The notes under the pieces were generated by a model, which worked only from the letters and a program-made list of their open reading frames with translations, searched no databases and was not told the origin of the DNA. A stretch of 64,000 bases of DNA from Jannaschia donghaensis (lineage in GTDB: Bacteria > Pseudomonadota > Alphaproteobacteria > Rhodobacterales > Rhodobacteraceae): NCBI RefSeq assembly GCF_001403795.1, contig NZ_CXSU01000012.1:247415-311414 (forward strand), in the 5' to 3' direction. Within the stretch, counting starts at the first letter, position 1. Each line of letters starts with the position of its first letter. Both the position numbers and the translations under genes were made by a program. Below are positions 43,871-55,720 of the stretch, in pieces.

Positions 43871-44485
43871 ATGAGCGACCGATCCTGTCCCAACTGCGGC
43901 GCGGCCTTGCCCGAAATTCTGGCCCATGCGCGCATGGTGAACTGCGACTTCTGCGGCACCTCCGTCGTGCTGGAGGATGAGGTTCTTCTGAACGCGGGCA
44001 CGTCCGGAGAAATGGTCACTGCACCAGCCCTGATCGAAATCGGTCGCGCGGTACGACTGCCAGGGGGCGAGTTCATTGCGACGGGCCACGTGCGCTACGA
44101 CTACGGTCGTGGCCATTGGGATGAATATCACGGAGCCTTGGACGGCGACGGGCTGTGGGTCTCCGTGGACGAGGGGGACGTCGTCGCACAACAGGCGATA
44201 GATGCGCCGAAGGGTGCCGACCGGGGGACGTTCAGGCTGGATGCGACCCTTGAGTTCGACGGCGTGACCTATCGCTGCACCGAGGTGTCCAATGCCACCG
44301 CCGTCGCCTTCCGCGGCCAACTGCCGGAGCCGATCGTCCTGGGCGATACACATCTGTACGCGAACTTTTCGGGGCCGGGCGGGATGCTCTTGTCCGGGGA
44401 AAGCTGGGACGGCGGATCCGCCTGGTTCGCGGGTCGGTGGATCGATCCCTTCGATATGAAACCTGCCGACGGGATCGCATCGTGA
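43871..44485 (+). CDS. Zinc-ribbon DUF4178-like protein
   Basis: 204 residues. N-terminal zinc ribbon C6-P-N-C9 ... C25-x2-C28 (SDRSCPNCGAALPE, VNCDFCGTSV) followed by a beta-rich domain with ATGHVRYDYGRGHWDEYHGAL and YRCTEV, features shared with DUF4178. No membrane segment. First gene of the plus-strand unit 43871-47718 and overlaps the next gene by GTGA. Function unknown; see the polyamine/envelope module finding. Confidence 0.75.
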   Translation: MSDRSCPNCGAALPEILAHARMVNCDFCGTSVVLEDEVLLNAGTSGEMVTAPALIEIGRAVRLPGGEFIATGHVRYDYGRGHWDEYHGALDGDGLWVSVDEGDVVAQQAIDAPKGADRGTFRLDATLEFDGVTYRCTEVSNATAVAFRGQLPEPIVLGDTHLYANFSGPGGMLLSGESWDGGSAWFAGRWIDPFDMKPADGIAS

Positions 44486-45753
44486 CGGGAACGACGCGCG
44501 CCATCGATTGCACGAACTGCGGCGCGGGCCTGGCGGTTTTGGGGGGTGGCCGGGTCAACACGCAGGTCTGCGGCTATTGTGGTGCGTCGCTGGATGCCAA
44601 CGATGCTTACCGCGTGCTGAAGGTCTGGGACGGGATGGAGCGGCCAAGCTCACCCTTCGGCCTTGGCATGACCGGCGCGATCGACGGCGTCACCTTCACT
44701 GTGATCGGCACGCTGGGCCAGCGGGAGGTTTGGGGGCGACAGGTGTGGGAATGGGTCGATCACCAGCTGTTTTCGCCCACCCACGGCTATGCCTGGCTGA
44801 CGGTGGAGGACGGCCATTGCGTCCTGACCCGCAAGCTGCGCGACGGGCCGATGCACAGCTTTCTCACGTCGGCAAAGGTCGAACGGGCCGAGACGCCGCC
44901 GCGTCTGTCCTGGAAAGGAACGCGGTATCGCTACTACGCGACGACGAATTGGGAAACGACCTACGTCGAGGGGGAGTTCAACTGGCGGCCCGAACGGGGG
45001 CGCACGGGCACGACCGTCACGGTGATGTCCGACGACCCTGCGGACGGGATGCTGGCCTTCGTGGAGCCGGTGGGCGGCGCGGAGCGGGAGATCGAGCGCA
45101 GCCATCTCTGGCCCGGCGCGCAGGCCGCCTTCGGCGTCGAAGCGCCCGTGCGCGTCCATGGCCAACACCCCCTGCAGGATATCAAGGCCGCCATCGGTCC
45201 GATGATGATCGCCTGGTTCGCCGGGCTGGCGGTGGCCGCCGTGGCGCTGGGGTTTGTGGTGGTGGCGATGCAGCCGGACCCGCAGCGCCTGTTCAGCGGA
45301 TCGCCCCAGGACCTGCCGCCCGAAATCGTATTCGCCGTCAGCGACACCACCCGTCCCGCGCGGGTCGAACTGTTCCACGATCTGCGCAATGCCTTCGCCG
45401 GATACGAGGTGCAACTTACGGCCCCCGACGGCACCGCACTTGCCGATACCTACCGCGAGATCAGCTATTATTCCGGCGGGTCCGGGGAAGACTCCTGGAG
45501 CGAGGGCAGTCGCAGTCAGACCCTGAACTTCGTGCCGCCCATGGCCGGGGACTACACCCTCTCGGTTGCGTCCGAGAGTGGAGGGGCCACCTCGGGTGCG
45601 TTCCGGGTCACGTTCCGCGAGGGGCGACTGAATGCCTTTTGGCTCTGGGCGGCGGCGGGTCTGTTCGGACTTTGCGCCGCGGCGATTCCCTTCTTCGGCC
45701 TTGCCAAGCGCAGTGCCCGGTGGAAGGGCTCGGACTGGTCATCGGAGGGGTAG
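44482..45753 (+). CDS. Zinc-ribbon DUF4178 membrane protein, GTG start
   Basis: 423 residues. Zinc ribbon (DCTNCGAGL ... VCGYCGASL) leads into a DUF4178 domain of about 150 residues with IGTLGQREVWGRQVWEWVDHQLFS and AWLTVEDGHCVL. A membrane helix near residue 250 (WFAGLAVAAVALGFVVVAM), a beta-rich segment and a second helix near the end (FWLWAAAGLFGLCAAAIPFFGLA) follow. Starts at GTG 44482 inside the preceding stop. Likely a paralogue of the upstream protein anchored in the inner membrane. Confidence 0.82.
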   Translation: MTGTTRAIDCTNCGAGLAVLGGGRVNTQVCGYCGASLDANDAYRVLKVWDGMERPSSPFGLGMTGAIDGVTFTVIGTLGQREVWGRQVWEWVDHQLFSPTHGYAWLTVEDGHCVLTRKLRDGPMHSFLTSAKVERAETPPRLSWKGTRYRYYATTNWETTYVEGEFNWRPERGRTGTTVTVMSDDPADGMLAFVEPVGGAEREIERSHLWPGAQAAFGVEAPVRVHGQHPLQDIKAAIGPMMIAWFAGLAVAAVALGFVVVAMQPDPQRLFSGSPQDLPPEIVFAVSDTTRPARVELFHDLRNAFAGYEVQLTAPDGTALADTYREISYYSGGSGEDSWSEGSRSQTLNFVPPMAGDYTLSVASESGGATSGAFRVTFREGRLNAFWLWAAAGLFGLCAAAIPFFGLAKRSARWKGSDWSSEG

Positions 45754-45757
45754 GGAC

Positions 45758-45946
45758 ATGAATTTCGGGCGTCTCGTCATCATGGCCCTGTCGCTTGCGC
45801 TGCTGGGCGGCGCGGCCTGGGCCAGTTTCACCAGCTACGGCCTGTCGATGAGCCGGGATGTGGGTGTCGCGGCCGCGGCCCGCGGGGCCTCGATCCGCAG
45901 CGGATCGATCGGAGTGGGCGGTGTGGGTCGGCTGCGCGTGAAATGA
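45758..45946 (+). CDS. 62-residue membrane peptide
   Basis: One hydrophobic helix (about residues 5-23, RLVIMALSLALLGGAAWA) could be a signal anchor or signal peptide. It is followed by a glycine/serine-rich tail RGASIRSGSIGVGGVGR. Four bases after the preceding stop with GGGG-TAGGGAC upstream, so it belongs to the operon. No family recognised. Confidence 0.65.
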   Translation: MNFGRLVIMALSLALLGGAAWASFTSYGLSMSRDVGVAAAARGASIRSGSIGVGGVGRLRVK

Positions 45947-45976
45947 TGCAGAACATATTGAAATAGGGAGACATCC

Positions 45977-46204
45977 ATGACCGCCTTCGACGGTATCCTC
46001 TTTTCCGAAGTCGTCTCGACGATATTCTACACGTTCTTCGGCCTCTCGCTTTTGCTGGCCTGCTGGTGGCTGATCGAATTGTTCACGCCATTCTCGCTCC
46101 GCAAGGAGTTGGAGGAGGATCAAAATACCGCCATCGCCATCGTGATGGGGGCCATGTTCATTTCCCTGGCCATCATCATCGCGGCCATCCTTCGGACCGC
46201 GTGA
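45977..46204 (+). CDS. DUF350 membrane protein
   Basis: 75 residues with two predicted membrane helices; LLACWWLIELFTPFSLRKELEEDQNTAIAIVMGAMFISLAIIIAAI carries the DUF350 (YjfL-like) hallmark pattern with the conserved acidic-Asn-Ala motif between helices. In E. coli a DUF350 protein is encoded in the yjf operon that also encodes a glutathionylspermidine-synthetase homologue, and here it overlaps an aminopropyltransferase gene, so the polyamine link recurs. The molecular function is unknown. Confidence 0.85.
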   Translation: MTAFDGILFSEVVSTIFYTFFGLSLLLACWWLIELFTPFSLRKELEEDQNTAIAIVMGAMFISLAIIIAAILRTA

Positions 46205-47718
46205 CGCACACGACCGGGGCCCCGCGTCGCGCCCAGATCTGGCTGCTGGCGACCACGCTGGTCGTCGCGGTCGCGGGCCTGATCTACGAGTTGATCGCGG
46301 CGACCGTCTCCTCCTACCTGCTGGGGGATTCCATCCGCCAGTTCAGCTTCGTGATCGGCGTCTTCCTGTCGGCGATGGGGGTGGGGGCCTTCCTGTCACG
46401 CTACGTCGATGATGCCGTCACCGGTTTCGTACGCGCCCAGATCGGGCTGGGCCTGATCGGCGGGTTCGCGGCCCTTTTGACATTCTATACCTACGCGCAG
46501 ACCGAGGCGGTGGCCCTGCCGCTGTATGGCACGCTGTTCGCGGTCGGCGCGCTCTCGGGGATGGAGATCCCGCTGCTGGCGCGCATCCTGAACCAGATCG
46601 GTGCGGGCCGCTTCCGGTTCGAGAATGTGCTGTCGTTCGACTACCTCGGGTCGCTTCTGGCCGCATTGGCCTTTCCGGTGCTGATCGTCCCGAACCTGGG
46701 GCTGATCGCGGCGGGTCTGGCGTTCGGGATGCTGAACCTGGCGGTCGCGGGCGGCACGATCTGGCTTTTCCGCGCGCGTCTTTCACGCGGTACGATGGCC
46801 GCATGGGGCGCGGCGACGGCACTGGTCGCGGCGACGTTGATGTGGTCGGGGCCGATCGCGGCGTCGGTGAACGCGACGCTTTACGACGACACGGTGATCT
46901 TCGATCGGCGCACGGAGTATCAGCAGGTTACTGTTACCCGGTTTCGCGACCGCACGCGGCTGCATCTGGATGGGGCAATCCAGTTCGATACCGCGGACGA
47001 GGCGCGCTACCACGAGTTTCTGGTCCATCCCGCCATGGCCCAGGCCCCCCGCCGCGCCCGCGTTCTGGTGCTGGGCGGGGGCGACGGGATGGCGGTGCGC
47101 GAAGTGCTGCGGTGGGACGATGTGGCGGCGGTGACCTTGGTCGATCTGGACCCGGCGGTTACGGCGCTTTTCCGCGACCGGGACGACCTTGCCGGGCTTA
47201 ACGATCGTGCCTTGCGCGACGCGCGGGTGGAGGTCGTGAATGCCGACGCCTTCGTCTGGGTGCGGAATGCCGAGACGGCGTTCGACGTCGTGATCATGGA
47301 TTTGCCTGACCCCAAGAATATCTCTCTGTCAAAGCTTTACACGGTAGAGTTCATGCGGCTGCTGAAGCGTCGCATGTCGGCGCAGGGCGTGCTGGTCACG
47401 CAGGCCGGATCGCCGATGTTCGCGGGCGATGCCTTCTGGATCGTGGCGCAGACGCTGGCGACCGAATGGTCGGTCACGCCGTACCGGTCTTATGTGCCAA
47501 GTTTCGGTCTGTGGGGGTTCGTGCTGGCGCGGCCCGACGGTATGGTGCCGCGCATGGCCGATTTCCCCGGCGGGCTGACGGTATTGACCCCCGACGCTTT
47601 TGCGGCCGCGCAGGTTTTCGATGGCGGGACCGGGCCGCGCGACGTGCCCGTCAATACGCTGTCCACCCATCCGTTGCCACGCGCCTATCAGGCGGGCTGG
47701 GAGGAATGGTTCCGCTGA
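46201..47718 (+). CDS. speE: Membrane-anchored spermidine synthase-like aminopropyltransferase, GTG start
   Basis: 505 residues. Residues 1-225 hold six or seven membrane helices; residues 230-500 form a spermidine-synthase methyltransferase-like fold with Tyr240-Gln241, LGGGDGMAVRE at 291-301, VDLDP at 314-318 and DLPDPKN at 367-373. It should transfer an aminopropyl group from decarboxylated S-adenosylmethionine to a polyamine or another acceptor at the membrane. The SAM decarboxylase gene faces it and overlaps its last 31 bases. GTG start at 46201 within the DUF350 stop. Confidence 0.88.
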   Translation: MTHTTGAPRRAQIWLLATTLVVAVAGLIYELIAATVSSYLLGDSIRQFSFVIGVFLSAMGVGAFLSRYVDDAVTGFVRAQIGLGLIGGFAALLTFYTYAQTEAVALPLYGTLFAVGALSGMEIPLLARILNQIGAGRFRFENVLSFDYLGSLLAALAFPVLIVPNLGLIAAGLAFGMLNLAVAGGTIWLFRARLSRGTMAAWGAATALVAATLMWSGPIAASVNATLYDDTVIFDRRTEYQQVTVTRFRDRTRLHLDGAIQFDTADEARYHEFLVHPAMAQAPRRARVLVLGGGDGMAVREVLRWDDVAAVTLVDLDPAVTALFRDRDDLAGLNDRALRDARVEVVNADAFVWVRNAETAFDVVIMDLPDPKNISLSKLYTVEFMRLLKRRMSAQGVLVTQAGSPMFAGDAFWIVAQTLATEWSVTPYRSYVPSFGLWGFVLARPDGMVPRMADFPGGLTVLTPDAFAAAQVFDGGTGPRDVPVNTLSTHPLPRAYQAGWEEWFR

Positions 47719-48035
47719 CCACGGGGCAAGATCGTCCGGCTGCTGTCGCGCGGGCAAAGGGCGGCGTCCAGCGCGTCGGCCGCCGCCGTCACATTCGCAT
47801 CGCCACACATGAAGATGTCGAGGGCGGCGTAGCCATGTTCGGGCCACGTGTGGATGGTGATATGACTTTCCGCCAGCAACAGCACGCCGGTGATGCCGCC
47901 ACCGTCGAAGGGGTGAAAATGGGCGGCAAGAACCGTGGCACCCGCGACCCGCGCCGCATCGCGCATCGCCGTCTGCAGCGCTTCCGCATCCAGTGCACCG
48001 CCCCAGTGTTCCAGGATCAGATGCTGGCCGATCAC
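47688..48035 (-). CDS. speD: S-adenosylmethionine decarboxylase proenzyme, GTG start
   Basis: 115 residues, prokaryotic class 1B size. The self-cleavage site is E56-S57 in AESHITIHTWPEHGYAALDIFMCG, where Ser57 becomes the pyruvoyl group; His62 and Cys77 are the conserved catalytic residues. Makes decarboxylated SAM for aminopropyl transfer. The start is GTG 48035, with GGAG 8 bases upstream and the dtd stop just before it. 3' end overlaps speE on the other strand by 31 bases. Confidence 0.92.
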   Translation of the reverse strand: MIGQHLILEHWGGALDAEALQTAMRDAARVAGATVLAAHFHPFDGGGITGVLLLAESHITIHTWPEHGYAALDIFMCGDANVTAAADALDAALCPRDSSRTILPRGQRNHSSQPA

Positions 48036-48036
48036 C

Positions 48037-48474
48037 TCAGCGCTCCATCGGGATGGTGACGGGACCGTCGTTGACCAGATGGACCGACATGTCGGCCCCG
48101 AACCGGCCCGTTCCGACGACGATGCCCGTGCCGCGAAGGCAGGCCACGAAGTGTTCGTAAAGATGTCGCCCGACGTCCGGCGGGGCCGCGGCGGAGAAGC
48201 CCGGTCGGTTCCCGGATGATGTGTCGGCGGCCAGGGTGAACTGGCTGACCACCAGGGCCCCACCGCCGGTGTCTAGAAGCGAGCGGTTCATCCGCCCCGC
48301 GTCATCGCGGAAGATGCGCAGCTTAGAGATGCGCCCGGCCAATGCTTCGGCATTCGCCTCGGCGTCCCCTTGCATCGCACAGATCAGAACAAGGACACCG
48401 GGGCCGGTGCGCCCGACGGTTTCGCCCGCGATTTCGACATGGGCCTGGCTGACGCGTTGGACAAGAGCCTTCAC
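48037..48474 (-). CDS. dtd: D-aminoacyl-tRNA deacylase
   Basis: 145 residues. Removes D-amino acids (and Gly) mischarged on t[26 protein letters not shown] and NDGPVTI are the two motifs that build the chiral pocket (here with the usual cross-subunit Gly-Pro). GTG start ([15 protein letters not shown]) at 48474; the family N-terminus is normally MKA/MRA. Translated just upstream of speD. Confidence 0.95.
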
Positions 48475-48484
48475 CGCGCCGCCG

Positions 48485-49366
48485 TCACAGCTCGCGGGCC
48501 CAGGGCGGGTTTGCCCCAGCACGGCTCACGGTGATCGCGGCTGCCGCCACGCCCAGTTCCAGCGCCGCGCTTAGATCGGTGTCCGACGGTGTGGATTTGG
48601 TCAACGCGCCGGCACGGTGCAGACCGGCCAGAAGGCCCGCGTTGAATGTGTCACCCGCGCCGACCGTGTCGATGACGTCGACCGTGGGGGCGGGGACATG
48701 GATTTCCGCGTCCTCGGTCAGGGCGCGCACGCCCTTGGCCCCTTCGGTCAGGCACAGCACCCTTGCCCCCGCGGCCAGAACGTCATCGGGTTTCATGCCC
48801 AGCCAATCCATGTCCTCGTCCGACAGCTTCACGATGTCGGCCACCGCCAGCAGCCGGTCGAGGCGGGCGCGAAACACGTCTGTGTCCTTGATGAAGCCGG
48901 GGCGGATGTTCGGGTCGATCATGATCGGCAGGTTTGCATGGCCAAGCGCCAATGCCTCGTAGGCCTGCGCGCACGGCTCCACCGCCAGGCTGATGCCGCC
49001 GATGAACAGCGCGTCCACCCCGGTCATGTCGGGCGCATCCCACGGGGCCAGCATCCTGCCTGCGGTGCCTTCGTCGTAGAAGGCATATTCCGCGTGGCCG
49101 TCCGTCAGGGTGACGAAGGCAAGCGTGGTGGGCCGGTCGCTGACGGCGGCGCGGTTTTCCACCCGGCTTTCGACCAGATCCGCGGCCAGACGCTGACCAA
49201 ACAGGTCCGACGACAAACCGGTGTGCAGCGCGACGGGTGCCCCCAGACGTCCCAGGGCGATGGCGGTGTTGAACACGGCCCCACCGGTTGCGGGGTAAAA
49301 TCCGGGCCCGTCCGCCGTGTCGCGGGGCAGCATGTCGATCAGGGCCTCGCCCGCGCAAAGGATCAT
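48485..49366 (-). CDS. PfkB-family carbohydrate kinase (fructokinase-like)
   Basis: 293 residues, ribokinase fold. N-terminal [11 protein letters not shown], the sugar-binding [16 protein letters not shown], and C-terminal [21 protein letters not shown] with the catalytic Asp. Closest in style to fructokinases. GGAGAGACGCCG precedes the start. It is in line with dtd and speD (10-base gap), a position also found in other rhodobacters, but no mechanistic link to polyamines is evident. Confidence 0.88.
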
Positions 49367-49433
49367 CGGCGTCTCTCCTGTTTTGGCGATCTGCTAGCGC
49401 GGAAGGACCCAAAGGGCCAGCGGGGACCGTCGC

Positions 49434-50555
49434 CTATTGCGCACCGTAGAGCGCCAGCGCGATCCCCGCCACGATAAGCGCGGCGATAACGGCCAACGCG
49501 ATCTTGATCTTGGAGTACGGGCGTTCGCCCTGAACCCGGCCCGTCTGACCGTTGACGACGAAGCGATAGCTTTCGCCGCCGTACTTGTAGGCCGCGACCC
49601 AGACCGGCAGCAGGACATGCTTGAAGGTCACGTCCGACATGGCGGTGTCGATCCGGCTGATCCGTTGCTGGTCGCCGCCGATGTCCATGCGCACGTCCCG
49701 CGCGATCACCGCGTCCATTCGCGCCCGTGCCTCGACCAGCCCGGCCTCCAGATCGACGCGGTAGGCCTCGGCCCGGAACCCGGCAAGGTATTGCGGGGTA
49801 TAGGGGGCCAGACCCGACAGATCCCACGGTTCCAACGCGTCGGTATGCGCCTTGGGCAGGGAGGTTGAGGCCAGGATCACCACGTCGTCAAAAAACCGCC
49901 GAACCCGGCCCGACCGGGGCGTCCAGCGGACCTTGGGCACCTGAACGCGCGTGGGTTTGCCGTCGCGCATAACGGTCTGCGTGACGTAGTAGACATCCCC
50001 CCGATGCCCTGAATACCGGCTGTCGGTCTGGGCATCGAAGGTCCAGAACGGGACATAGATGCCGGACATCTTCTGCCCCTTGCGGGCATATTTCTGAAGA
50101 CCGTTGGGTGCGAACCACAGGTTGCCCAGCCAGTCGTCCATCGCCTTGTGCGCCTGTGCCTCCTGCAAATCGAACGGCAGGACGGCGGCGGGTTTGATGT
50201 GGCGGTTGGTGCCGGTTCCCGTGACCACGGGTGTGGCGCAGAACGGGCATTCGGCGGCATGGATTGCCGGGTCGAATTCCACCTGGGCGCCGCAATTCGG
50301 ACAATTGAGGACGCGCGTTTCCTCCTGAACGGCGGCATCGGCGTTCAGGCCTCGGTCGATCGCGATTTCGCGTATCGTGTCGCCACCGCGCGACAGCGGC
50401 GTGACGTTTCCGCAATGGTCGCACAGCATCGCGTCGCGGCCCGGATCGAACCGCATGTCGCCGCCGCAGGCATCGCAGGGAAAGCGGTGTTCCTCGGTCT
50501 TTGGGATTTCGGGCGGACGCTCAGCTTCGGTAAGGGGAACGGTGGGCAGTTTCAC
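49434..50555 (-). CDS. Double zinc-ribbon protein with C-terminal membrane anchor
   Basis: 373 residues. Two zinc ribbons in tandem: Cys27/30/45/48 (PCDACGG...LCDHCGN) and Cys85/88/103/106 (NCPNCGA...ECPFCAT). A beta-rich middle domain with MSGIYVPFWTFDAQTDSRYSG and VPKVRW follows, then HVLLPVWVAAYKYGGESYRFVVNGQTG and a last membrane helix (about 350-370). Databases often label such proteins primosomal N'-like or TFIIB-type zinc ribbon, but no helicase domain is present. Starts inside the cytochrome b561 stop (ATGA). Confidence 0.82.
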   Translation of the reverse strand: MKLPTVPLTEAERPPEIPKTEEHRFPCDACGGDMRFDPGRDAMLCDHCGNVTPLSRGGDTIREIAIDRGLNADAAVQEETRVLNCPNCGAQVEFDPAIHAAECPFCATPVVTGTGTNRHIKPAAVLPFDLQEAQAHKAMDDWLGNLWFAPNGLQKYARKGQKMSGIYVPFWTFDAQTDSRYSGHRGDVYYVTQTVMRDGKPTRVQVPKVRWTPRSGRVRRFFDDVVILASTSLPKAHTDALEPWDLSGLAPYTPQYLAGFRAEAYRVDLEAGLVEARARMDAVIARDVRMDIGGDQQRISRIDTAMSDVTFKHVLLPVWVAAYKYGGESYRFVVNGQTGRVQGERPYSKIKIALAVIAALIVAGIALALYGAQ

Positions 50556-51088
50556 AAGAACCTCTGCAACGCTTTGGGGGCCATGATGCGCAGGGCGTTG
50601 TCACGCAACCGGTAATGTCGCCAGATATGATAGGCCGCGTGGAAGGCAACGATCACACCTAGGCCGTAGAATTCCACTGTGTGCAACGTGCCGACCCATT
50701 GGTTCGCATCCGGCAGGCCCAGCGGCGGGGCAATGGGCAGGATGGTGCCGGCGAACAGGACGCGACTGGCCGTCAGACCCAGCAAGAAACCCGTGACCGC
50801 CACGCCGAACAGCCCCCAGACGATGGTGAGATGCAGGGGCCGGTGAATGGCCCGTGCGACGCCGCGCAGCTTGGGACCGGGGCGCGACGCAAGTCCGAGA
50901 TAGATCAGCGAGACCGTCCAGCCCAGGCACATCGCCACGAAGACGAGCCCGAAGATCGAGTGCAGTTTGACCGCCCAATTGCCCCAGGCGGCGACGTCGC
51001 CGGGCTGCACCAGCAGGAACCAAACGAACAGCGGCAGCATCGACCAATGCAGGGTCTTGAGCCAGGTGCGGCGGGTGGGCAGCTGCAT
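50552..51088 (-). CDS. Cytochrome b561-type membrane protein
   Basis: 178 residues with four predicted membrane helices and histidines placed for two b-type haems: His14 (LHWS), His43 (KLHSIFG), His82/86, His136 (LHTVEF), His150 and His154 (FHAAYHIWRH). Typical of prokaryotic b561/hydrogenase-cytochrome-b-like electron carriers. Start MQLPTRRTWLK chosen at the family-like N-terminus. Would supply or drain electrons at the inner membrane for this operon. Confidence 0.88.
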   Translation of the reverse strand: MQLPTRRTWLKTLHWSMLPLFVWFLLVQPGDVAAWGNWAVKLHSIFGLVFVAMCLGWTVSLIYLGLASRPGPKLRGVARAIHRPLHLTIVWGLFGVAVTGFLLGLTASRVLFAGTILPIAPPLGLPDANQWVGTLHTVEFYGLGVIVAFHAAYHIWRHYRLRDNALRIMAPKALQRFL

Positions 51089-51107
51089 ATGCACGCAAGG
51101 CGGGGGT

Positions 51108-51371
51108 CTAGACCCCCGCACCCCCCAAGGTATGTCCGGCCAGAAGAAAATGGCGTTTCATCGGCCCCCTTTCGTAAAGACCCTCTGCCCAAGCCGTCGC
51201 AGTGGGGCGAACCCCGCGGTCGATGGCCAGCAGACATCCCGAAACCGAAATCGACCCGGCCGTCTTTGCATCGCGTTCGGCGGCGGCCCGGAAGATCGTG
51301 GAAATGGTGTTTCCGGCGACGGCAATTGTACCAGTCCGGACGACGCAATCGAAGGCAGCCACGCGGTGCAT
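51108..51371 (-). CDS. 87-residue orphan protein in the SPFH operon
   Basis: The ATG overlaps the SPFH gene stop in TGATG, and the frame ends 19 bases before the cytochrome b561 start, so it fills the operon neatly. The product (VAAFDCVVRTGTIAVAGNTISTIFRAAAERDAKTAG...) has no signal peptide, long hydrophobic helix or recognised domain. Coupling is the main evidence that it is real; codon use looks ordinary. Confidence 0.5.
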   Translation of the reverse strand: MHRVAAFDCVVRTGTIAVAGNTISTIFRAAAERDAKTAGSISVSGCLLAIDRGVRPTATAWAEGLYERGPMKRHFLLAGHTLGGAGV

Positions 51372-52477
51372 CAGACGCCCGGCGGCGGGGGCGGGGGCAT
51401 CACGGTGAAAAGCTGGGCCAGTTCGTCCACGTCATCGGCTGTTTTCCAGCCATCCTGACCTTGGGTCCAGACGTGGGTTTCGCGCGTGACTTCCCCGTCG
51501 GTGACCATCCGGCCCAGCCGCGCCTTGGAGAATGGACCCTTGGTCTGGCCGCCTTCCGCGATGTGCCAGACATGTTCCACGGGCGGGGGCGGGGGGGCTG
51601 GTGCCTGCTGTTGTGGACGGGCCCCCCAGGGACCGGCCTGCATCATGTTGCCCATCGCCATGCCCATACCGGCCCCCAGACCCATGCCCATGCCACCGCC
51701 CGGTTGCTCTGCGGCGGCCTGCATCGCCTCGGCGGTGGCGTATTGCTGATACTTGTTCAGATCGCCCAGCACGCCCATCGACGTGCGCTTATCCAACGCC
51801 TCCTCCACCGCGGGCGGCAGGGAGATGTTCTCGATGTAGAGCTCCGGCACGGTCAGCCCGTAGTCCTGGATCGTCGCGGAAATCTGATCGGCGACGATCT
51901 TGCCCAGATCATCGGTGTTCGCCGCCATGTCCAGCACGGGGATGCGCGACCCGGCCAATGCGCGGGACGCCGATTGCACGATCATGTTGCGGATCTGGAA
52001 CTGGATCTCGTCGCGGGTAAACTCGCCGTCGGTGCCGACGATCTCGGTCAGGAACTTGCCGGGGTCGCCGACCTTGATCGTGTAGGTGCCGAAGGCGCGC
52101 AGACGAACGGGGCCGAATTCCGGATCGCGCAGGGTGATCGGATTCTTGGTGCCCCATTTCAGGTCCGTCATCCGGGTGGTGGAGACGAAATAGATCTCGG
52201 ATTTGAAAGGCGATTTGAAGCCGTGATCCCAATGCTGCAACGTCGTCATGATGGGCATGTTGTTGGTTTCCAACATGTACAGACCTGGCATGAAAACATC
52301 GGCCAGCTGGCCTTCGTGGATGAAGACCGCCGCCTGTCCTTCGCGGACCGTCAGCTTGGCACCGTATTTGATCTCATGGCCGTGACGCTCGAACCGGTAG
52401 ACCAGCGTGTCGCGGGTGTCGTCGGTCCATTCGATGACGTCGATGAATTGGCCGGAAAGGAAATCGAGGATGGACAT
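51371..52477 (-). CDS. SPFH/Band-7 protein with C-terminal GYF_2-like domain
   Basis: 368 residues. Residues 1-260 form a virion-core/YdjI-type SPFH domain (FERHGHEIKYGAKLTVREGQAAVFIHEGQLADVF..., then FTRDEIQFQIRNMIVQSASRAL). A Gly/Met-rich linker (GGGMGMGLGAGMGMAMGNMM) and a proline run lead to a GYF_2/DUF4339 module (HVWHIAEGGQTKGPF...LGRMVTDGEVTRETHVW). SPFH proteins scaffold membrane microdomains; GYF_2 binds proline-rich or membrane partners. AGGGAGCC precedes the start. Confidence 0.9.
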   Translation of the reverse strand: MSILDFLSGQFIDVIEWTDDTRDTLVYRFERHGHEIKYGAKLTVREGQAAVFIHEGQLADVFMPGLYMLETNNMPIMTTLQHWDHGFKSPFKSEIYFVSTTRMTDLKWGTKNPITLRDPEFGPVRLRAFGTYTIKVGDPGKFLTEIVGTDGEFTRDEIQFQIRNMIVQSASRALAGSRIPVLDMAANTDDLGKIVADQISATIQDYGLTVPELYIENISLPPAVEEALDKRTSMGVLGDLNKYQQYATAEAMQAAAEQPGGGMGMGLGAGMGMAMGNMMQAGPWGARPQQQAPAPPPPPVEHVWHIAEGGQTKGPFSKARLGRMVTDGEVTRETHVWTQGQDGWKTADDVDELAQLFTVMPPPPPPGV

Positions 52478-52583
52478 GGATGGCTCCCTGAGAAATGCCT
52501 GTGCCGTCCTGGGACGGTCGAAATCAATAGAACACCTATGCGCGCGCAGGCGTCAGTTGTAGGGGCGCGGCATCGCCACGCGG

Positions 52584-53543
52584 TCAGACCGGGCCCGATC
52601 CGAGCAGATCAGATGCGATCCGGGCGACGATCGGGCGTGCCTCCTCGGCGGTCATCCCGATACGCAGCCGACTGTCGTAGAGCATCGTCAGGAGAAGCTC
52701 GTCGTGGCGGGTCAGCAAGGCGAATTCCTCGTCGTCATTGAAGATCGAAGGACGCACCGCAGGATTGTCGTTCGCAAGCCCCAGGCCCTGAGCGATTTCC
52801 TCGTGATAGCATGATTGACGGAAAAGATCGGGATGTTCGGCGCGCACGAAGGCGATGGCCGAGACGTAGGCGTTGGGTCGGTCCGACGACGAAGACGCGT
52901 AGACCGCGCAATAGGTGGAGCGGCCGAGCGACGTAATCTCCCGCACGGTCTGTTTGGTCAGACCGGGTTCCGCGGCACGGATCTGGGGGCCGAGGCTGCG
53001 CTGTTCGTCAATGGTCGCCACGAAGATGTGGTAGTTTCCGCCCGATCCTACGACGCTGATGGGATGGCCGGTCGCGCGCCGCAGACGACTGACATAGGCA
53101 AGGATGCGAAGCCGGTCGGCGCGCTGTATTTCCTCGGACACCGAGGGGCTGAAATGGATCTGGACGCGGACGGGTCGATCCCACCGTCGCAACTCCGCCC
53201 GGCTTTGACGTGCGATATAGCGCCCGCCGACCTGCGTGTATTCCGAGAACAGCGCGATCCGCTCGAAGTTCCGGGCCAGATCGGCGGCTGAATATCCGAC
53301 ATTCGTCCCGATATCCTGCCGCAGCAGACCCTCGCCCTGAAGCCGGGTCTGCAGGCGCGCATAGAAAAGCGCCAGAGACCTGCTTTCGTCGGACGCGCTG
53401 CGGCTGGACGTGGCGACAGCGGGGCTGGGCGGTGGGCGGACGGTCGGCACACCGACCGACCCACCTTGTGGCACGGCACCCGTCTGACAGGCTGCGACGG
53501 CAGCCGACAGGACGATCGCCGCAAGGGTCCGAAGCATCCGCAT
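52584..53543 (-). CDS. DUF2927 lipoprotein
   Basis: 319 residues. Lipobox VAAC with Cys19, then a Pro/Ser linker and a DUF2927 domain. The C-terminal region has SCYHEEIAQGLGLANDNP (His247, Glu248/249) and FNDDEEFALLTRHDELLLTMLYD, characteristic of the family and suggestive of a degenerate metalloprotease site. Start overlaps the TelA stop. A 106-base gap separates it from the SPFH gene. Confidence 0.88.
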   Translation of the reverse strand: MRMLRTLAAIVLSAAVAACQTGAVPQGGSVGVPTVRPPPSPAVATSSRSASDESRSLALFYARLQTRLQGEGLLRQDIGTNVGYSAADLARNFERIALFSEYTQVGGRYIARQSRAELRRWDRPVRVQIHFSPSVSEEIQRADRLRILAYVSRLRRATGHPISVVGSGGNYHIFVATIDEQRSLGPQIRAAEPGLTKQTVREITSLGRSTYCAVYASSSSDRPNAYVSAIAFVRAEHPDLFRQSCYHEEIAQGLGLANDNPAVRPSIFNDDEEFALLTRHDELLLTMLYDSRLRIGMTAEEARPIVARIASDLLGSGPV

Positions 53544-54736
53544 CAGGGGGCGGGAACCGACGTGCCGGTCGTGGTGCCGACCCCGTCCTTGCGCGCGGTG
53601 GCCGAGGCCAGCGTTTCGCGCAGTTCCTTTTCCATGATCGTAAGTTCCTTTTCAGCCTCGGCGCGGCGCGCCTTGCCTTCATCGGCGATTTGCAGGCTTT
53701 CGTTGATGGTGGCGACCAGATCCTCGTTGGCCTGACGCACAGCCTCGATGTCGAAGACGCCGCGCTCCATCTCGATGCGTACGACGGAGTTGGCCTCCCG
53801 CAGGTTCTTCGCGTTCGCCTTCAGCAAATCATTGGTCAGGTCGTTTGCATCGCGCACCGCCTCCGCCGCTTCACGTGAACGTTGGATCGTAACGGCCTGT
53901 GCCAGCTGAGTTTCCCAAAGCGGGACGGTGTTGACCAGGGTGGAGTTGATCTTGGTGACCAGGCTCTTGTCGTTTTCCTGAACCAGGCGGATCGACGGCA
54001 GCGATTGCATCGTGACCTGTCGCGTCAGTTTCAGGTCGTGGACCCGGCGCTCCAGATCGTCACGCGCGGCGCGCAGGTCGCGCAGCTCCTGACTGCCGAT
54101 CATCTTGTCGTCGTCGGGCAGGGCCGCGATCTCGGCTTCCTTGGCGGGAATGGCCGTTGCGTCCAGATCGGCGATCTTGGCCTCACCGGCAGCAATATAG
54201 AGGCCCAGTTCCTCGTAGAAATCGAGGGTCTTTTCATAGAGCTTGTCGAGTGACTTGATGTCCTTGAGCAATACATGCTCGTGCTTGAGCAGGTCGTCGG
54301 TCACCTTGTCGATCTGGCCCTGAACGGTCTCGAACTTGGAGATGAAGTTGGAGAAGGGGGCCGCCCGGCCCAGCAGCTTTTCCCACCAGGACCGTTTGCG
54401 CCGCACGTCCAGTTCCGACACCGAAAATCCGCGAATGGTCGATACGATATTGCGCAGACTGTCGCCTGCGGGGCCGACGTCCTTGTTTTTCACATCCGCC
54501 AGCATGGCCTGCGAAATCTGCTGCAATTCGGCCTGCGCGGCGGATCCGAAGCTGATGATCGACTGGGTGTTGATCATGTCCAGCTCGGCCATGCGGGTGC
54601 GAATTTCCTCGGCCACGGGGGCGGGGGCTTTTTCCAGCGGCACGATTGCCGTGCCCGGCTCTGGCAGGGTGACGGCCGCGATCTGGTCGACTTCCGCCGT
54701 GTCCTGGGCGGCCTTCTGGCGGGTGGCGGTATCCAT
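53543..54736 (-). CDS. TelA-family toxic anion resistance protein
   Basis: 397 residues, almost wholly helical/coiled-coil, with DNLLxDIxxLDxLYEKTLDFYEELGLYIAAGE (here KDIKSLDKLYEKT...) and the RDLRAARDDLERRVHDLKLTRQVTMQSLPSIRLVQENDKSLVTKINSTLVNTVPLWE-type block that defines TelA. Implicated in tellurite and envelope-stress resistance. Typically encoded next to XpaC, as here (4-base gap). Confidence 0.92.
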   Translation of the reverse strand: MDTATRQKAAQDTAEVDQIAAVTLPEPGTAIVPLEKAPAPVAEEIRTRMAELDMINTQSIISFGSAAQAELQQISQAMLADVKNKDVGPAGDSLRNIVSTIRGFSVSELDVRRKRSWWEKLLGRAAPFSNFISKFETVQGQIDKVTDDLLKHEHVLLKDIKSLDKLYEKTLDFYEELGLYIAAGEAKIADLDATAIPAKEAEIAALPDDDKMIGSQELRDLRAARDDLERRVHDLKLTRQVTMQSLPSIRLVQENDKSLVTKINSTLVNTVPLWETQLAQAVTIQRSREAAEAVRDANDLTNDLLKANAKNLREANSVVRIEMERGVFDIEAVRQANEDLVATINESLQIADEGKARRAEAEKELTIMEKELRETLASATARKDGVGTTTGTSVPAP

Positions 54737-54739
54737 AAT

Positions 54740-55621
54740 TTACTCTCCCGTTGGCAGGCCGTCTGCTTTGAGACGGTCCCGCAAGACTTCGATTTCGACA
54801 TCCAGATCGGTGCGGTCGGACAGCAGCAGGGTTTCCCGCTTGGCATCGAACCCTCGCTCCAGATCGTCGAGCAGCTTGAAATAATCGGCTTTGGCGGCGG
54901 GGTCGCGGCTGACGGCATAGATATCGGCGAACTTCACCGTCGCGTCGCGGGCCCCCATCAGATAGACGCCCAGGAACTTGCGCGCCGACGTCAGGTCGCG
55001 GGGGTCGTCTTCCACCGTGCGGAACATGGCGCGGGCCTTGCCGGACAGGCGTTCGACGCGGGCCGTCGCCTCCCGGTCCTTGGCACGCAGGACCGCGTCG
55101 TTCATCGCCGTGACATGACGCTCCGCCTCCTCGATCGACCGGGCCACACGCTCGGTCTGGAAGGCATCCACGCCCTCCATTCCCTTGTCGGACATCGGGT
55201 CGATGCCGAAGCTGACGATGTGAAGGGCCGCCGCCACCAGGCCATAGACCGCCCCGGCCGGGCCGATTCCGGCGGCGAACATCACACCGATACCCAGCAC
55301 GACCGCGCCGAATATCTTGCGCGGAAGGGCGGGGCGGCGTGCGATGCGACGCTCGGCCCAGGCCGCTTCTGCCTTGAGCCCCTCGCGCGTCAGAAGCGCC
55401 CCGCAGAAGATCGCGGCACCCGCGGCGATGCTGCCGGCAAGGCCGAGCGCGCCATCGGCGAAAAACGCGGTGATGACCGGCAGGATCGCCAGTGCCATCA
55501 GGATGGTCGTGCGGGCCTGTCCCCTGAGCGGTGATCTGAGATGCGGGGCGGGCGCGGCGATGGTGCCGGGCATCCCCGATTTGCCCTGAGGGCTGTGCTT
55601 GCCGCCATAGCGCTGCGCCAT
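54740..55621 (-). CDS. xpaC: XpaC-family 5-bromo-4-chloroindolyl phosphate hydrolysis protein
   Basis: 293 residues. The N-terminal half has paired membrane helices (about 40-80 and 103-140); the C-terminal half is helical and acidic with ARKFLGVYLMGARDATVKFADIYAVSRD, conserved in XpaC. The family name reflects a phenotype, not a proven enzyme activity. Partner of TelA in many genomes. Confidence 0.88.
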   Translation of the reverse strand: MAQRYGGKHSPQGKSGMPGTIAAPAPHLRSPLRGQARTTILMALAILPVITAFFADGALGLAGSIAAGAAIFCGALLTREGLKAEAAWAERRIARRPALPRKIFGAVVLGIGVMFAAGIGPAGAVYGLVAAALHIVSFGIDPMSDKGMEGVDAFQTERVARSIEEAERHVTAMNDAVLRAKDREATARVERLSGKARAMFRTVEDDPRDLTSARKFLGVYLMGARDATVKFADIYAVSRDPAAKADYFKLLDDLERGFDAKRETLLLSDRTDLDVEIEVLRDRLKADGLPTGE

Positions 55622-55624
55622 TGC

Positions 55625-55720
55625 TCAGAGACCCCCGCCCGAAAGCACGCCGACGCCCGCCAGCGCCACGAGCACGGCCAACGCCGCGAAGGCGGTCTTC
55701 TGCAATCCAGGTGAGCCCAT
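55625..55720 (-). CDS. 31-residue membrane peptide leading the XpaC-TelA operon
   Basis: ATG at 55720, stop at 55625, four bases before the xpaC start. The sequence is a short cytoplasmic MGSPGLQKT followed by one hydrophobic helix (AFAALAVLVALAGVGVLSGGG). GAGGGAAC lies about 10 bases upstream. Its length and position are those of a small regulatory or scaffold membrane peptide. It would be missed by gene callers with a length cutoff. Confidence 0.6.
   Translation of the reverse strand: MGSPGLQKTAFAALAVLVALAGVGVLSGGGL

Follow-up and report, generated by a model that had tools for sequence, protein, structure and literature searches.

Membrane-fused homologues of spermidine synthase have been described before: Li and colleagues reportedly found, in 2019, thousands of bacteria carrying such a homologue together with its own donor enzyme, with the acceptor left unnamed, and are said to have argued that a fusion of the MFS-SpdSyn type, accompanied by an S-adenosylmethionine decarboxylase (AdoMetDC) and DUF350, acts on an acceptor other than putrescine. 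The locus studied here lies in a stretch of 64,000 nucleotides from Jannaschia donghaensis (contig NZ_CXSU01000012.1, positions 247,415 to 311,414; hereafter the window), and has in common with that system SpeD, a membrane-fused SpeE and DUF350; no acceptor was reportedly named there, and the terminal lysine of a small membrane tail encoded among these genes is what our analysis adds to the picture. Another precedent is the work of Ravi et al. 2024 (PMC11237479), which describes operons of a seven-transmembrane spermine synthase, DUF350 and DUF4178 with PspA and CesT, ligase-group variants without PspA, and related variants with an AdoMet decarboxylase and with a band-7 protein with SHOCT replacing the PspA dyad; those authors suggest either polyamine monitoring or aminopropylation of other substrates, and name a novel lipoprotein in one group.

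The cassette type itself is hence already published, and the new element is the tail. With the operons of PMC11237479 our locus shares the membrane SpeE, DUF350 and DUF4178, and so do all of the 15 further close SpeE loci that we read (with a reach of some 12 kb on the downstream side and 3-6 kb on the upstream side), where ZR4178a, the second DUF4178 protein and DUF350 all adjoin SpeE. It differs in its pair of zinc-ribbon DUF4178 proteins, its half-size DUF350 and its lysine-ended tail, and in carrying no SPFH itself; of the dyad, PspA was not found in the window, and CesT was not searched for. The word TelA has 0 occurrences in the main text of PMC11237479, the one article in the literature searched (thin on subscription journals) in which the word DUF4178 appears. 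As far as titles and the starts of abstracts tell, no other article there describes such a system, and neither a conserved terminal lysine nor a pairing of TelA-XpaC with the cassette turned up in the passages and search results consulted. Gene identities were taken from Pfam profile matches over the window's proteins, and the neighbourhoods of relatives were read locus by locus. The cassette comprises the following genes, in window coordinates.

43871..44485, + strand: ZR4178a, zinc ribbon plus DUF4178 (Pfam DUF4178, 7.9e-21).
44482..45753, + strand: ZR4178b, zinc ribbon, DUF4178, helix, beta domain and helix (Pfam DUF4178, 1.7e-12).
45758..45946, + strand: microprotein of 62 amino acids with a single transmembrane segment, ending ..GRLRVK-COOH (same place and same terminal lysine in relatives).
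45977..46204, + strand: half-size DUF350 of 75 amino acids (Pfam 1.2e-13, profile positions 2-66 of 133).
46201..47718, + strand: membrane SpeE with an N-terminal membrane domain (Pfam Spermine_synth; PRK03612).
47688..48035, - strand: SpeD, S-adenosylmethionine decarboxylase with the motif ESHITIHTWPE (Pfam AdoMet_dc, 1.8e-30).

Most cassettes hold a small open reading frame (ORF) with a single transmembrane segment beside DUF4178, usually between DUF4178 and DUF350, its product ranging from 46 to 100 amino acids (85 distinct sequences). The one in the window, which matches no family in Pfam or NCBIfam, had been missed in an earlier note on this DNA that otherwise named the gene families correctly. 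These tails, Gly/Ser/Arg-rich and by their sequence membrane-anchored, are very variable except at the very end: the final lysine is preceded by G, H, V or I and by nothing else, and a single acidic residue occurs in the last 12 positions of all 85 sequences taken together. The rule that we regard as unbiased, which takes whatever candidate fills the gap between DUF4178 and DUF350 and sets no condition on the last residue, yielded candidates in 67 of 79 gap-bearing loci and none in 12; where there was one candidate ORF it ended in lysine in 60/60 cases, and where there were two, one of them did so in 7/7, while the figure for random stretches was 9/77. Overall, once four loci read from their frames are added to 92 listed ones, a lysine-ended tail is present in 96/96 loci with SpeE, DUF4178 and DUF350, and in 18 of the 33 loci in which this trio was not found, the other 15 having none. 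A separate filter for membrane ORFs with a Gly/Ser tail, last residue free, returned a lysine end in 73/137 ORFs near SpeE vs at most 7/120 in control loci, where lysine was outside the six commonest ends; this filter skipped many known tails, the window's included, so that the 77/129 loci in which it found something are no measure of prevalence.

The same ending also turns up on other carriers. In one group of proteobacterial operons there is no separate ORF, and the DUF4178 protein itself ends in the tail, with SGGSHK or alike: 8 such proteins end in HK, vs 1/109 ending in K among DUF4178 proteins of loci with a separate microprotein. The five other DUF4178 proteins on the same list are without the K end, and their loci, L115, L138, L178 and L179, carry a separate tail. 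Seven loci have a larger DUF350, and five of these seven have PspA; in all seven a protein just upstream of DUF350 ends in RGK, SGK or GGK, and the novel lipoprotein of PMC11237479 may be the same kind of tail.

A parallel is found in Escherichia coli, where YjfM (L227, 8-646) ends in SARGHWGG and YgiB (DUF1190; L228, 245-916) in SSRSMGG, and where both adjoin genes, YjfC and YgiC, annotated as peptide-spermidine ligases. That YjfC and YgiC are such ligases was reportedly established by Pederick and colleagues in 2023. It is possible that YjfM and YgiB are their natural substrates, by way of the C-terminal carboxylate. Like our cassette, the yjfIJKLMC and ygiBC sets combine an N-terminal hydrophobic stretch and a Gly/Ser/Arg tail with a neighbouring polyamine enzyme, and the yjf set holds DUF350 as well as PspA; unlike it, their tails end in GG and not K, and their enzyme, according to PMC11237479, is an ATP-grasp ligase. 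GG ends would be appropriate for a ligase coupling spermidine to a carboxylate, as K ends would be for an aminopropyltransferase, and the GG-ended tails hint that polyamine-tipped membrane tails may be a common theme of several envelope gene sets that so far lack an explanation.

The enzymes of the cassette appear catalytically intact. SpeE passes the PRK03612 / NF002956 polyamine aminopropyltransferase model with 596 bits against a cut-off of 472, over residues 7-503, and the active-site residues of aminopropyltransferases are present in it. In an alignment of 52 of the 71 full-length proteins listed plus the window's own (A3, 53 sequences), the invariant positions include YQ 240-241, Q261, DE 266-267, YHE 270-272, G292, GDG 294-296, D367 and PDP 369-371, and also three acidic residues of the membrane domain, E30, E122 and D147; alignment A5 comprised 39 of 47 listed proteins plus the window's, and A2, for DUF350, 13 sequences. 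The structural model of SpeE (pLDDT, predicted local distance difference test, 91.8) has the N-terminal helical membrane domain that the earlier note had described, on a protein with the fold of aminopropyltransferases; the PDB matches listed cover the catalytic half only and are uninformative on the membrane half, and the solved relatives closest to the catalytic domain include thermospermine synthase and a crenarchaeal enzyme. As for ZR4178b, whose AlphaFold2 model (pLDDT 94.2) places helices 240-262 and 386-413 on either side of the beta domain, comparison with the PDB gave only low TM-scores and no convincing match.

SpeD matches PF02675 with 105.8 bits against a cut-off of 25. The processing motif of class 1b S-adenosylmethionine decarboxylases is ESHxTxHTWPE; this motif is present in the window's SpeD, which is predicted to be an enzyme of that class and would act on AdoMet rather than on ornithine or arginine; neofunctionalised SpeD proteins do exist (PMC10407285). 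Among 101 Rhodobacterales genomes, SpeD occurs in 17/17 of those with a full-length membrane SpeE vs 6/84 of the others (Fisher 1e-14, kinship ignored), and of these six, five have a soluble SpeE and the sixth is a partial match at a contig edge. In 15 of the 17 genomes the membrane type is the sole PF01564 match (E 1e-8) and there is no soluble SpeE; the other two also keep a soluble one. Seven genomes (L067-L073) have a SpeD without SpeE near rplM/rpsI-like genes (named by eye), no soluble speE and a membrane SpeE cassette elsewhere, and in two other genomes the same place holds a soluble SpeD-SpeE pair. Because SpeD and the membrane SpeE co-occur, soluble SpeE is rare beside them and the lone SpeD sits at a conserved place, SpeD seems to have been kept for the membrane enzyme. 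In congener G058, SpeD is not at the main locus and is present beside a second SpeE copy.

Some further SpeE-like proteins were seen along the way. Loci L044-L046 represent a second lineage of Rhodobacterales membrane SpeE, about 40 percent identical, with SpeD upstream, in which the protein just before SpeE ends in SARTGGPRSGK or alike and has no DUF4178 match. In the J. donghaensis genome itself a spermidine-synthase-like domain recurs in another, divergent membrane protein (G000:C12:1649001; L077, 6913-8607; PF01564, 25 bits), which has DAFSS in place of the DLPDP of the window's enzyme and is probably not an aminopropyltransferase. In the Campylobacterota cassettes L104, L106, L107 and L109, a gene resembling carboxynorspermidine decarboxylase, identified by eye, directly follows SpeE.

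We propose, as a tentative mechanism, that SpeD would decarboxylate S-adenosylmethionine to decarboxylated S-adenosylmethionine (dcSAM), and that the membrane-anchored SpeE would move the aminopropyl group to an acceptor held at the membrane and not to free putrescine. An acceptor other than putrescine we consider probable; that this acceptor would be the C-terminal lysine of the Gly/Ser/Arg-rich tail encoded by the same operon is a possibility we put forward with some reserve. The carrier would be the microprotein at 45758-45946 in the window, and the DUF4178 fusion or the lipoprotein-like protein elsewhere. The side chain of lysine is an aminobutyl amine, as in putrescine, and it is because of this resemblance that the terminal lysine is proposed; it could enter the putrescine pocket from the chain end. 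The product, aminopropyl-lysine, would add positive charge at the membrane surface, and DUF350 and the two zinc-ribbon/DUF4178 proteins might hold the complex together and sense its state. In the window's genus the cassette would have come to adjoin a scaffold, the XpaC-TelA-SPFH operon described below, that it may use, a use that we propose because many cassettes elsewhere carry an SPFH of this family themselves. A surface-charge role would be compatible with findings on TelA in other bacteria: nisin tolerance in Listeria is influenced by a TelA homologue, the Bacillus counterpart of which reacts to poly-lysine (PMC12791056). The lysine-ended tail would in this way provide, inside the cassette operon, a concrete acceptor candidate for an enzyme that reportedly lacks a known one, and of the options raised in the earlier note it is the aminopropyl-modified membrane component that fits best. 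A wider claim, which we regard as rather doubtful, would be that many phyla have a dedicated, hypusine-like protein aminopropylation in which a SpeD-fed membrane enzyme modifies the C-terminal lysine of a tail, as the Yjf and Ygi enzymes of E. coli would ligate spermidine to a C-terminal GG, and that SPFH scaffolds, joined in some lineages by the XpaC-TelA unit, organise the tipped tails at the inner membrane.

Several points speak against this proposal. Of the 90 tail loci, 23 were chosen by their lysine end or by eye, which leaves the gap rule as the unbiased figure; several other tails were read from frames while lysine was being sought, and relatives are not independent of one another. No tail was found in 15 of 129 membrane-SpeE loci, although 13 of these are also without a found cassette partner and some are nearly flankless. 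The topology is an additional difficulty. Counts of lysine plus arginine place the N-terminus of SpeE inside, and seven crossings would then put the catalytic domain outside, away from cytosolic dcSAM; residues 140-189 of the SpeE model form one unbroken helix, so that there might be only six crossings, with the catalytic domain inside and therefore away from the tail if the tail is N-in/C-out. The net charge of the flanks favours this latter orientation in 72 of 85 tails, with 3 opposite and 10 tied, yet the raw lysine plus arginine counts on the two flanks are equal, 120 to 121. As for the scaffold, no SPFH lies beside the cassette in the 12 close Rhodobacterales loci of other genera, and cassette genes are found neither in any of 20 further Rhodobacterales TelA loci nor in any of 23 gammaproteobacterial ones, one of them from the genus in which the two units are joined (L108, below).

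Other explanations have to be weighed against a modified terminal lysine. SpeE could aminopropylate a small molecule or a lipid headgroup, for polyamine export or to give a lipid like aminopropyl-phosphatidylethanolamine, with the tail as a docking or topology element; the invariant E30, E122 and D147 of the membrane domain and the presence of thermospermine synthase among the nearest solved enzymes speak for it, as does the case for a non-putrescine acceptor reportedly made in 2019. We nevertheless find this explanation unlikely, as it does not say why tails that are otherwise so variable should conserve their final lysine. Still less probable, in our opinion, is a tether of the kind formed by Braun's lipoprotein. 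Lpp is a membrane-anchored outer-membrane lipoprotein whose last residue is lysine, and L,D-transpeptidases would similarly cross-link the side-chain amine of the tail's terminal lysine to peptidoglycan, tying an inner-membrane complex to the wall, while aminopropylation would target something else or block the link. The shared lysine, the N-terminal hydrophobic stretch of the tails with a net flank charge that favours N-in/C-out (the side being predicted), and the seven loci where a larger protein encoded upstream of DUF350 has the tail at its end (the protein of L196 shows a lipobox-like N-terminus), agree with such a tether. It leaves unexplained, however, the association of tail and aminopropyltransferase in all the loci with a complete trio and the GG ends beside the E. 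coli ligases; Lpp is not known to have aminopropyltransferase neighbours. Ordinary spermidine synthesis by an enzyme that just happens to be anchored in the membrane, among incidental neighbours, would account for the intact spermidine synthase motifs and agree with the NCBIfam name, polyamine aminopropyltransferase, but it is improbable given that two genomes keep a soluble SpeE beside the membrane one and that the cassette retains its partners across several phyla.

The candidate acceptor belongs to the cassette, and what lies next to the cassette in the window has to be considered separately. The earlier note had counted sixteen genes on two facing units; the facing units are there, with 14 genes at 43871-55621, five on the + strand (43871-47718) and nine on the - strand (55621-47688), SpeD being, as a correction, one of the latter. 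ZR4178a and ZR4178b overlap by 4 bases, as do DUF350 and SpeE (GTG starts, including that of ZR4178b, picked in this analysis), SpeD begins 1 nucleotide past the stop of the D-Tyr-tRNA deacylase (DTD) gene, and SpeD and SpeE share 31 nucleotides at their 3' ends. A kinase-like gene (SBD_N/NBD_C) lies upstream of the + unit. Beyond SpeD, the - strand reads as follows.

48037..48474, - strand: DTD, at the end of the core operon, a passenger (Pfam 1e-50).
48485..49366, - strand: PfkB-type sugar kinase, a passenger (Pfam 6.9e-40).
49434..50555, - strand: ZnR, double zinc ribbon (P0010) with a C-terminal hydrophobic stretch (CxxC pairs in the sequence).
50552..51088, - strand: cytochrome b561-like membrane protein (Pfam 6.2e-10).
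51371..52477, - strand: SPFH (Band_7_1) with a C-terminal GYF_2 (P0012; Pfam 2.5e-100 and 1.3e-20).
52584..53543, - strand: DUF2927 protein (Pfam 1.4e-59).
53543..54736, - strand: TelA (Pfam 3.6e-104).
54740..55621, - strand: XpaC-like protein (Halogen_Hydrol, PF10112; Pfam 2.1e-26).

Pfam supports the families that the earlier note had named, that is DUF4178 twice, Spermine_synth, b561, Band_7_1 with GYF_2, DUF2927, TelA, Halogen_Hydrol, DUF350 and AdoMet_dc. ZnR has sub-threshold Pfam matches only, an ORF of 87 amino acids at 51371-51108 matches no Pfam family, and the N-terminus of the DUF2927 protein resembles a lipoprotein signal (VAAC at 16-19, by eye).

Almost certainly, the locus is made of two modules with separate histories. 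The first is the rare cassette, with two zinc-ribbon/DUF4178 proteins, microprotein, half-size DUF350, membrane SpeE and convergent SpeD; the second is a common operon, XpaC-TelA-DUF2927-SPFH/GYF-ZnR with passengers, conserved and probably an envelope scaffold. Of the 17 Rhodobacterales genomes with a full-length membrane SpeE, 16 have the close type, two of which also hold a second copy at roughly 40 percent, and one has a 42 percent type only; DUF4178 occurs in exactly the 16 close-cassette genomes, while TelA is found in 99 of the 101, in single copy, irrespective of SpeE status. XpaC, TelA, SPFH, ZnR, DUF2927 and b561 adjoin SpeE in only 3 of the 15 close loci, all of the window's genus, and the TelA unit was absent beside the cassette in all 12 loci of other genera within the stretches read. 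Of the 20 TelA loci mentioned above, one of which ends at a contig end, XpaC, DUF2927 and SPFH are present in 19 each and ZnR in 14, and DTD (9), PfkB (7) and b561 (4) are less constant. In congener G060 the TelA locus is in fact an empty site: the next gene after DTD is the aminotransferase gene, which in the window is found on the far side of the cassette. SpeE, SpeD and DUF4178 were not found in that genome, and the two arrangements differ by the gain or loss of about 5.6 kb, the kinase-like gene included. Because phyletic patterns, neighbourhoods and the empty site differ in this way, we reject a single system as a rule for Rhodobacterales, and DUF2927 and b561, like PfkB and DTD, find no support as parts of one. 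A single PspA-independent system of all sixteen genes is very improbable, since the adjoining of the two units in the window, in three congeners and in Jannaschia seohaensis (the closest named relative, with SpeE 74 percent identical and the whole locus alike) and their union in one gammaproteobacterium are outweighed by the separate phyletic patterns, the empty site, the passengers that are not conserved and a PspA held elsewhere in the genome. The facing arrangement was also considered as a sign of co-regulation, an idea weakened by L036, L096 and L098, where SpeE and SpeD are convergent with no TelA unit nearby. Our analysis in this way parts what belongs together in the window from mere neighbours.

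Beyond Rhodobacterales, the neighbourhood co-occurrence that fails across the genera of that order is partly recovered. We read 110 membrane-SpeE loci, the window excluded, in sets of 80 and 30, the latter being what remained of 45 matches once 6 Rhodobacterales already covered and 9 weaker ones were left out. SPFH lies near the cassette in 33 of the 110, in four phyla; in 31 it shares the strand of the closest cassette gene, and in 30 it is no more than 1.5 kb away from that gene. The probability of lying within 10 kb of one given locus by chance is about 0.6 percent. The 67 SPFH proteins placed in a tree form two clades, both at 100/100: one of 29 from cassettes, with zinc-ribbon or SHOCT-like tails (by eye), and one of 38, mostly GYF-tailed, that includes the 34 TelA-unit proteins. 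SPFH proteins of the GYF-type clade are found in four cassette loci, those of Jannaschia, L108 and the sister pair L110 and L147; since two of the four are sisters, the pairing arose at least three times.

TelA is near SpeE in only two of the 110 loci, L092 and L108. The latter, from an uncultured gammaproteobacterium, has DUF4178, DUF4178, DUF350, SpeE, XpaC, TelA, SPFH/GYF and ZnR on one strand; a chimeric assembly was considered and set aside, as there is no step between SpeE and XpaC in G+C content or in that of third codon positions (GC3). In G645 (L221), which belongs to the same genus, the TelA unit occurs with no cassette, so the join looks recent. Of 24 gammaproteobacterial TelA places, 23 were read (L202-L224), the 24th (G511, 100 percent identical) being taken as the genome of L108 itself; XpaC-TelA is present in 23/23, SPFH in 14 and ZnR in 11, so XpaC-TelA is a conserved operon in its own right in this class too. 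The link of the cassette with the TelA unit looks recent in each case, and that with SPFH is broad; a looser functional link between cassette and TelA unit may exist, and the one-system idea gains some support outside Rhodobacterales, from SPFH and from L108.

With regard to PspA, the earlier note was right that the window has none, but not if the whole genome is meant: a single homologue is present there, on a different contig (C11:189747-190412; L079, 8718-9440). It has neighbours that by eye look TetR-like and ABC-F-like and is a long way from either module, and in Rhodobacterales genomes that hold both, PspA is likewise on other contigs or far from SpeE. As a partner acting in trans it was considered, with 12/17 membrane-SpeE genomes vs 26/84 others having it (Fisher 0.005, kinship ignored), and rejected, as it is unlinked in the J. 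donghaensis genome. The ydj operon of Bacillus subtilis, as described in PMC11237479, carries PspA and a TPM-domain protein, neither of which is among the Pfam matches of the window's unit, and TelA, XpaC and SpeE fall outside that description; what it shares with the window is the combination of SPFH and a double zinc-ribbon transmembrane protein, a pair represented here by P0012 and P0010, which are encoded on the same strand and separated by b561.

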